64,000 nt of DNA, from assembly GCF_024518575.1 (NCBI RefSeq), contig NZ_JANIHG010000005.1, positions 1 to 64,000 of the forward strand, in the 5' to 3' direction. The notes below the pieces were generated by a model. That model saw nothing but the letters and a program-made list of their open reading frames with translations, made no database searches and was not told the DNA's origin. The translations under genes were made by a program, and so were the position numbers. Below are positions 39,833 through 40,614 of this stretch, piece after piece (within the stretch, counting starts at the first letter, position 1; the number at the start of each line of letters is the position of its first letter). The DNA comes from Methanothrix sp. (GTDB lineage Archaea; Halobacteriota; Methanosarcinia; Methanotrichales; Methanotrichaceae).

Positions 39833-40060
39833 GAAGTCGCTTTTATCCGTTTAACTGCCTGAATCATCTTGGCTCAGTGGTGTTTTTTCGATGGATGAGT
39901 GCGATCTGACTCACTTGCATGGTCGCAAGTTGAAAAATAGAGAAGAGCGTTAGCTAACCAACAGTTTCGAACTCCAGAACAGCGCTCTCGCCCCTGTTAC
40001 TGTCGCGTCGGTGCCCATAGCCTGGCAATATGTTTGATCTATCAGCTGCACCGGATTGCA

Positions 40061-40138
40061 TCAGAGCAGACCTGATATGAACATGGCTGCGCATGCTATT
40101 ATGAGAATACCTATCCAGTACATAAAGACATTTTTCAT
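40061..40138 (-). CDS. 25-residue single-pass membrane peptide
   Basis: ATG at 40138 is preceded by TTGGAGGTTTGTGGTAAA, a strong ribosome binding site with 9-base spacing. The peptide MKNVFMYWIGILIIACAAMF plus five residues is a nearly pure transmembrane helix ending LL. The same frame is open upstream, but only the part after the ribosome binding site looks like a protein. The 116-bp miniature element lies about 70 bp upstream, so its insertion may have altered the promoter. Function unknown; tiny membrane peptides often modulate a membrane complex. Confidence 0.55.
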   Translation of the reverse strand: MKNVFMYWIGILIIACAAMFISGLL

Positions 40139-40614
40139 TTTACCACAAACCTCCAATTGTTTATTGTATTTTTCTACAAAAAGGTATTTAGTCTTTTTGG
40201 AAAAAGTGCTGTGTTGAATAATGTTTGAGAATCCGATAGCATAGGCTGGATTCATACGAATTGCAATCCTAGTAAAAATCAATAGCTATCGACCTTAAAG
40301 CTCTTAATTATTCAACACAGCAGGAAAAAGTGCTTTAATGTGGAGATCACATAGTTGCCAGTGAAATCGAGCTGGTATTCTAATTGCGTCTGGATTCGCA
40401 TGAATTCGGTGAGGTCGCATGCTATTGATCTGGTGATGAGAGATCAGACGAAACGGAAGCGTGCTGGATTGCAATATGATCAAACAGATTCCGAGAACAC
40501 TGATCTCCATTCTTTCCTGCAGCGAAACCGAAGCGCTGTCTGAGGATGACATAGATCGGCGATCTGAGAACAAGCGAAAAGAGTTAAATCCGATCTCCTC
40601 AACCTTGGATCCGT
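40139..40614. other. 476-bp AT-rich gap holding a miniature element
   Basis: Apart from the 116-bp element and the leader of the 25-residue peptide no gene is convincing. The sequence is markedly more AT-rich than its surroundings. Confidence 0.55.
40207..40322. mobile_element. Miniature inverted-repeat element, copy 1 (116 bp)
   Basis: Perfect 16-bp terminal inverted repeats TGCTGTGTTGAATAAT (40207-40222) and ATTATTCAACACAGCA (40307-40322), with a perfect 8-bp target duplication GGAAAAAG at 40199-40206 and 40323-40330. No coding capacity. The ends match copy 2 at 35282-35392; inside, a stretch such as AGAAT-CC-AT...TAGGC...GATTC can be aligned with the reverse complement of copy 2, so the two are diverged members of one family. 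Confidence 0.82.

Follow-up and report, generated by a model that had tools for sequence, protein, structure and literature searches.

The insertion sequence (IS) ISC1058 is a member of the IS5 family. The SM3 and SM3A elements of Sulfolobus are MITEs that are moved by ISC1058 (PMC3718332), and 44 copies of SM3 are present in S. solfataricus P2 (PMC10969869). In methanogens, MITEs whose 15-17 bp ends match an IS5-family partner occur in 5-24 copies, with ISMba19 (147 bp), ISMma12 (140 bp) and others listed as partners (PMC3852290 Table 4). Within the IS5 family, the ISH1 subgroup (e.g. ISTth7) is characterized by a length of 900-1150 bp and an 8-bp target duplication (PMC6352166 Table 2).

The window analysed here is a stretch of 64,000 nucleotides from a Methanothrix sp. 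genome, and it contains a 116-bp element (Table 1) that can be compared with these systems. Like the IS5-associated MITEs of M. barkeri, M. acetivorans and M. burtonii, it is short and non-coding, resides in a methanogen and has an IS5-family partner, but the elements described in those hosts have duplications of 0 or 3 bp and other lengths, whereas the Methanothrix element is 116 bp long, has 8-bp duplications and is present in about 40 copies. It would likewise resemble SM3 and SM3A as a multicopy MITE of a thermophilic archaeon that depends on an IS transposase acting in trans, although SM3A is 164 bp long and found in another host phylum. The partner IS and its relatives agree with the ISH1 subgroup in size (985-1031 bp), 8-bp duplication, a single transposase ORF and a match to an IS5 model, whereas the MITE has no ORF. 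No description of a MITE from Methanothrix/Methanosaeta was found in the open-access literature, a search that the main 2007 archaeal IS survey lay outside. The MITE/IS5 pair is well supported, ordinary in kind and apparently undescribed, with priority not established, and the analysis documents its recent mobility in Methanothrix.

Table 1. Positions in the window (genome G000, contig C29) of the MITE, its parts and the adjoining small gene.
Feature	Position	Strand	Remark
MITE (family A), 116 bp	40207..40322	+	non-coding
Left terminal inverted repeat (TIR), 16 bp, TGCTGTGTTGAATAAT	40207..40222	+	
Right terminal inverted repeat (TIR), 16 bp, ATTATTCAACACAGCA	40307..40322	-	
Target duplication, left 8-bp copy, GGAAAAAG	40199..40206		equals 40323-40330
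Target duplication, right 8-bp copy, GGAAAAAG	40323..40330		
Internal conserved motif 1, consensus AATCCGATAGCAGAG	40230..40244	+	direct repeat of motif 2
Internal conserved motif 2, consensus TAGTAAAAATCGATAGC region	40272..40286	+	
25-codon single-span membrane-peptide gene MKNVFMYWIGILIIACAAMFISGLL, MKNVF[P/M]YWIG..SGLL	40061..40138	-	outside MITE
TATA-like box CTAAATACC of membrane-peptide gene	40183..40191	-	identical in six genomes

Copies of the element and empty sites in relatives

The first-pass annotation had reported a complete 116-bp element with 16-bp inverted repeats and an 8-bp target duplication, and every detail proved exact. The two ends are perfect reverse complements, and inverted repeats with a duplication arranged in this way, at any length from 50 to 500, would be expected by chance about 1e-7 times in 64 kb. 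The 84-bp core contains no ORF of note and thus lacks coding capacity for a transposase, in agreement with the element having been called non-coding. An element below 500 bp that is non-coding and multicopy, with target duplications and with inverted ends that are those of an autonomous transposon, is what defines a MITE, and all these properties were found.

A search of the genome from which the window comes (1.66 Mb, 72 contigs) with the 132-bp query that includes both duplications gave 42 matches, about 40 of which had 92-100% identity over the element. The 16-bp end occurred 110 times with at most two mismatches, while the reversed control sequence gave 0 occurrences. Among the 48 end pairs examined for duplications, which were 111-118 bp long, the 8-bp flanks were identical in 27 and differed by one base (7/8) in another 7, so that the further copies for which the annotation had proposed to search are present in large number and with 8-bp duplications. 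The copy at C72:59093-59208 is identical to the MITE in the window and the duplications are intact at both sites, which supports the earlier suggestion of fairly recent movement. Some copies form tandem arrangements with spacings of 8-11 bp or are nested end to end. As regards target-site preference, the 27 duplications were without a palindrome and only weakly biased. The viral contigs contained no exact match, and viral carriage was dropped as a reading.

The site was compared in five other members of the genus, and an alignment of orthologous DNA was obtained for four of them. Three (G001, G002 and G004) are empty at the exact insertion point, with a continuous sequence ...GGTATTTAG[T/A]CTTTTTGGAA... 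and a single TGGAA-type sequence where the window has the duplication; in the fourth (G003) unrelated DNA is present at this point, and in the fifth genome (G005) the two flanks are located on separate contigs. The comparison with related strains that the annotation had called for thus yielded empty sites, and given the three empty sites and the unrelated DNA in the fourth relative, the insertion in the window is lineage-specific.

Copies of the MITE avoid genes, since only 7 of 30 sites were located in ORFs of at least 100 aa, whereas 82% of randomly chosen positions in the window were; of the seven ORFs, some are probably spurious. This strong bias to intergenic DNA, together with the conservation of an internal motif between genera, would also suit a fixed host repeat, e.g. 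a regulatory or structural RNA, that had spread in some other way and was kept for a host function, with the inverted ends being incidental. However, the 8-bp duplications and the empty sites demonstrate transposition, folding of the core was no better than that of shuffled sequences in most families (z -2.3 to +1.3) and the 84-bp core gave no match in Rfam, and such a host repeat is therefore highly improbable. When structured RNA was considered separately, the core of nine family representatives, folded on both strands, was not consistently more stable than shuffled sequences. One compensatory change was seen in G002 (CGATAGC/GCTATCG to CAATAGC/GCTATTG), yet copies with broken pairs were common.

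The partner insertion sequence

The same genome carries a 1003-bp IS with the ends TGCTGTGTTGAATAAT and TGCTGTGTTGAATAAC (TIR TGCTGTGTTGAATAA[T/C]), which extends across contigs C24 and C42. The join rests on an overlap of 127 identical bases between the contig ends and may chain two copies of the IS. The IS contains one open frame for a DDE transposase of about 315-330 residues, which matches the NCBIfam model NF033579 transpos_IS5_2 (1.5e-78, 264 bits against a cut-off of 140) and also Pfam DDE_Tnp_1. Given that the IS is split over contigs, its own target duplication is unreadable, and the difference between the flanks of the IS ends in C24 and C42 suggests that there is more than one copy; a third left end is found at C18:1-266. 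Complete relatives are present in other genomes: a 1031-bp IS in G036 with an 82% identical transposase, the same TIR and the 8-bp duplication TGTCTGCC, a 988-bp IS in G002 with TIR TGCTGTGTTGGATAA and duplication CTAAATTC, and the IS of G015 together with a second copy in G036, which are 985-987 bp long with ends TGCTGTGTTGATTAA and 8-bp duplications. A full IS with matching ends, the other prediction made from the window, was thus found both here and elsewhere. The elements of G036, G002 and G015 lie within the ISH1 range of about 900-1150 bp and have 8-bp duplications, and the partner is classified as a putative ISH1-like member of the IS5 family, the subgroup being assigned by size (985-1031 bp) and duplication length rather than from a tree.

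Taken together, the multiple copies with 8-bp duplications, the empty sites in relatives and the presence in the same genome of an IS with matching ends and a transposase argue for a MITE, a non-autonomous miniature DNA transposon, of about 116 bp that almost certainly owes its movement to the transposase of an IS5-family (ISH1-like) IS acting in trans, a reading to which we assign a probability of about 0.96. The transposase would recognise and bind the MITE in trans at both 16-bp ends, cut or copy these and join them to a target cut with an 8-bp stagger, and repair of the staggered cut would then produce the 8-bp duplication. That the resident transposase acts on the MITE in this manner is inferred, and the strand-transfer chemistry proposed is that of the known IS5 family. 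Dozens of insertions between genes, and several of the breaks between contigs in the assembly, are explained by the MITE/IS pair.

Duplications of 8 bp are not unique to IS5/ISH1 and are also made by, e.g., IS1595 and IS256. The duplication length could therefore also be accounted for if a transposase of another such family moved the MITE, but exactly these ends flank a transposase gene in the same genome, and relatives carry complete copies, which makes this extremely unlikely.

The stretch common to MITE and IS is 20 bp on the left (TGCTGTGTTGAATAATGTTT) and 15-16 bp on the right, and the core is unrelated to the IS. With only 16-20 bp in common, the partner is assigned by its ends and duplication length and not by descent. 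The identical 16-bp ends and the 20 bp in common on the left would be expected if the MITE had arisen recently from the resident 1003-bp IS by internal deletion. This origin is very unlikely, given that the sequences diverge past 16-20 bp, that the core motifs are missing from the IS ends and that other species carry the same core with 70-80% identity, which indicates that the MITE lineage is old; the deletion-derivative origin was rejected because the MITE core is missing from the IS.

Two groups of MITEs, distinguished by their end type, are present in the genus. The GAATAA-end group, to which the family in the window belongs and which is also found in G002, G003 and G016, fits the IS ends of G000 (the window genome) and G036. 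The GGATAA-end group, a minor family in the window genome that is found in G004, G001 and G005, fits the IS ends of G002, including the asymmetry of AAC on the left and AAG on the right. Many GGATAA-end MITEs, many of them with perfect 8-bp duplications, were observed in G001 (L154-L163) and G004 (L124-L152). No transposase of the partner IS type was detected in G001 or G004, and MITEs of this type thus persist there without a visible partner. Archaeal MITEs without a visible partner are already known (PMC3852290).

At the start of contig C18 (L054:1-400), the left end of an IS is separated by 8 bp from a MITE copy (TACGAACC), and a partial extra end AACACAGCA comes next. This arrangement is an adjacent or nested insertion.

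Element length and internal motifs

In all loci fetched (72 elements), pairs of perfect ends spanned 108-118 bp. A scan for lengths of 101-131 bp detected elements in seven of 50 genomes of the family, and no versions of 70-100 bp or 132-162 bp were found in the 50 genomes. The cores of the two MITE groups are about 50-60% alike. An alignment of 20 members from four genomes showed that AATCCGATAGCAGAG and AAAATCGATAGC are near-invariant direct repeats in the core, about 46 bp apart.

Elements of 111-112 bp with the same 15-bp ends were also observed in Marsarchaeota G1/G2 and in a Thaumarchaeota MAG, UBA160 (L130, L142, L135 and L153). No similarity between their cores and those of the Methanothrix MITEs could be detected, and the common ends hint at related IS5-type elements across archaeal phyla.

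One idea, which we consider doubtful, is that element length is under selection, so that transposition would occur only or best with ends about 11 helical turns apart, and that in addition the repeated internal motif is a candidate binding site for the transposase or a host DNA-bending protein, which would favour the short element over the IS as a substrate. A uniform length of 108-118 bp despite core differences of about 40-50%, and the 111-112 bp of the Marsarchaeota and Thaumarchaeota elements, are consistent with this idea, but common ancestry and amplification explain a uniform length within a lineage and a true length constraint is therefore only suggested. If it were true, these elements would lend themselves to measuring the control of transposition by the distance between the ends. 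The uniform length and the repeated motif are slightly beyond routine and provide no evidence for an element of a new kind.

The site beside the small membrane-peptide gene

The 25-residue membrane-peptide ORF beside the element, which had been named from the window alone, is real, since the ORF, a GGAGG-type ribosome site and the CTAAATACC box are all conserved in five other species. The MITE was inserted immediately upstream of this box, where the conserved block has its outer limit, and the block remains whole. The proposal that the element could supply or disrupt promoter elements therefore holds in part: the MITE adjoins the TATA-like box on its upstream side, but as the box is left intact the core promoter is neither removed nor clearly supplied by the insertion.

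A phosphoesterase gene (39833-40031) adjoins the site in the window and is located about 6.5 kb (G002) and 37 kb (G003) from the orthologous site in relatives, which indicates a rearrangement breakpoint between this gene and the site.
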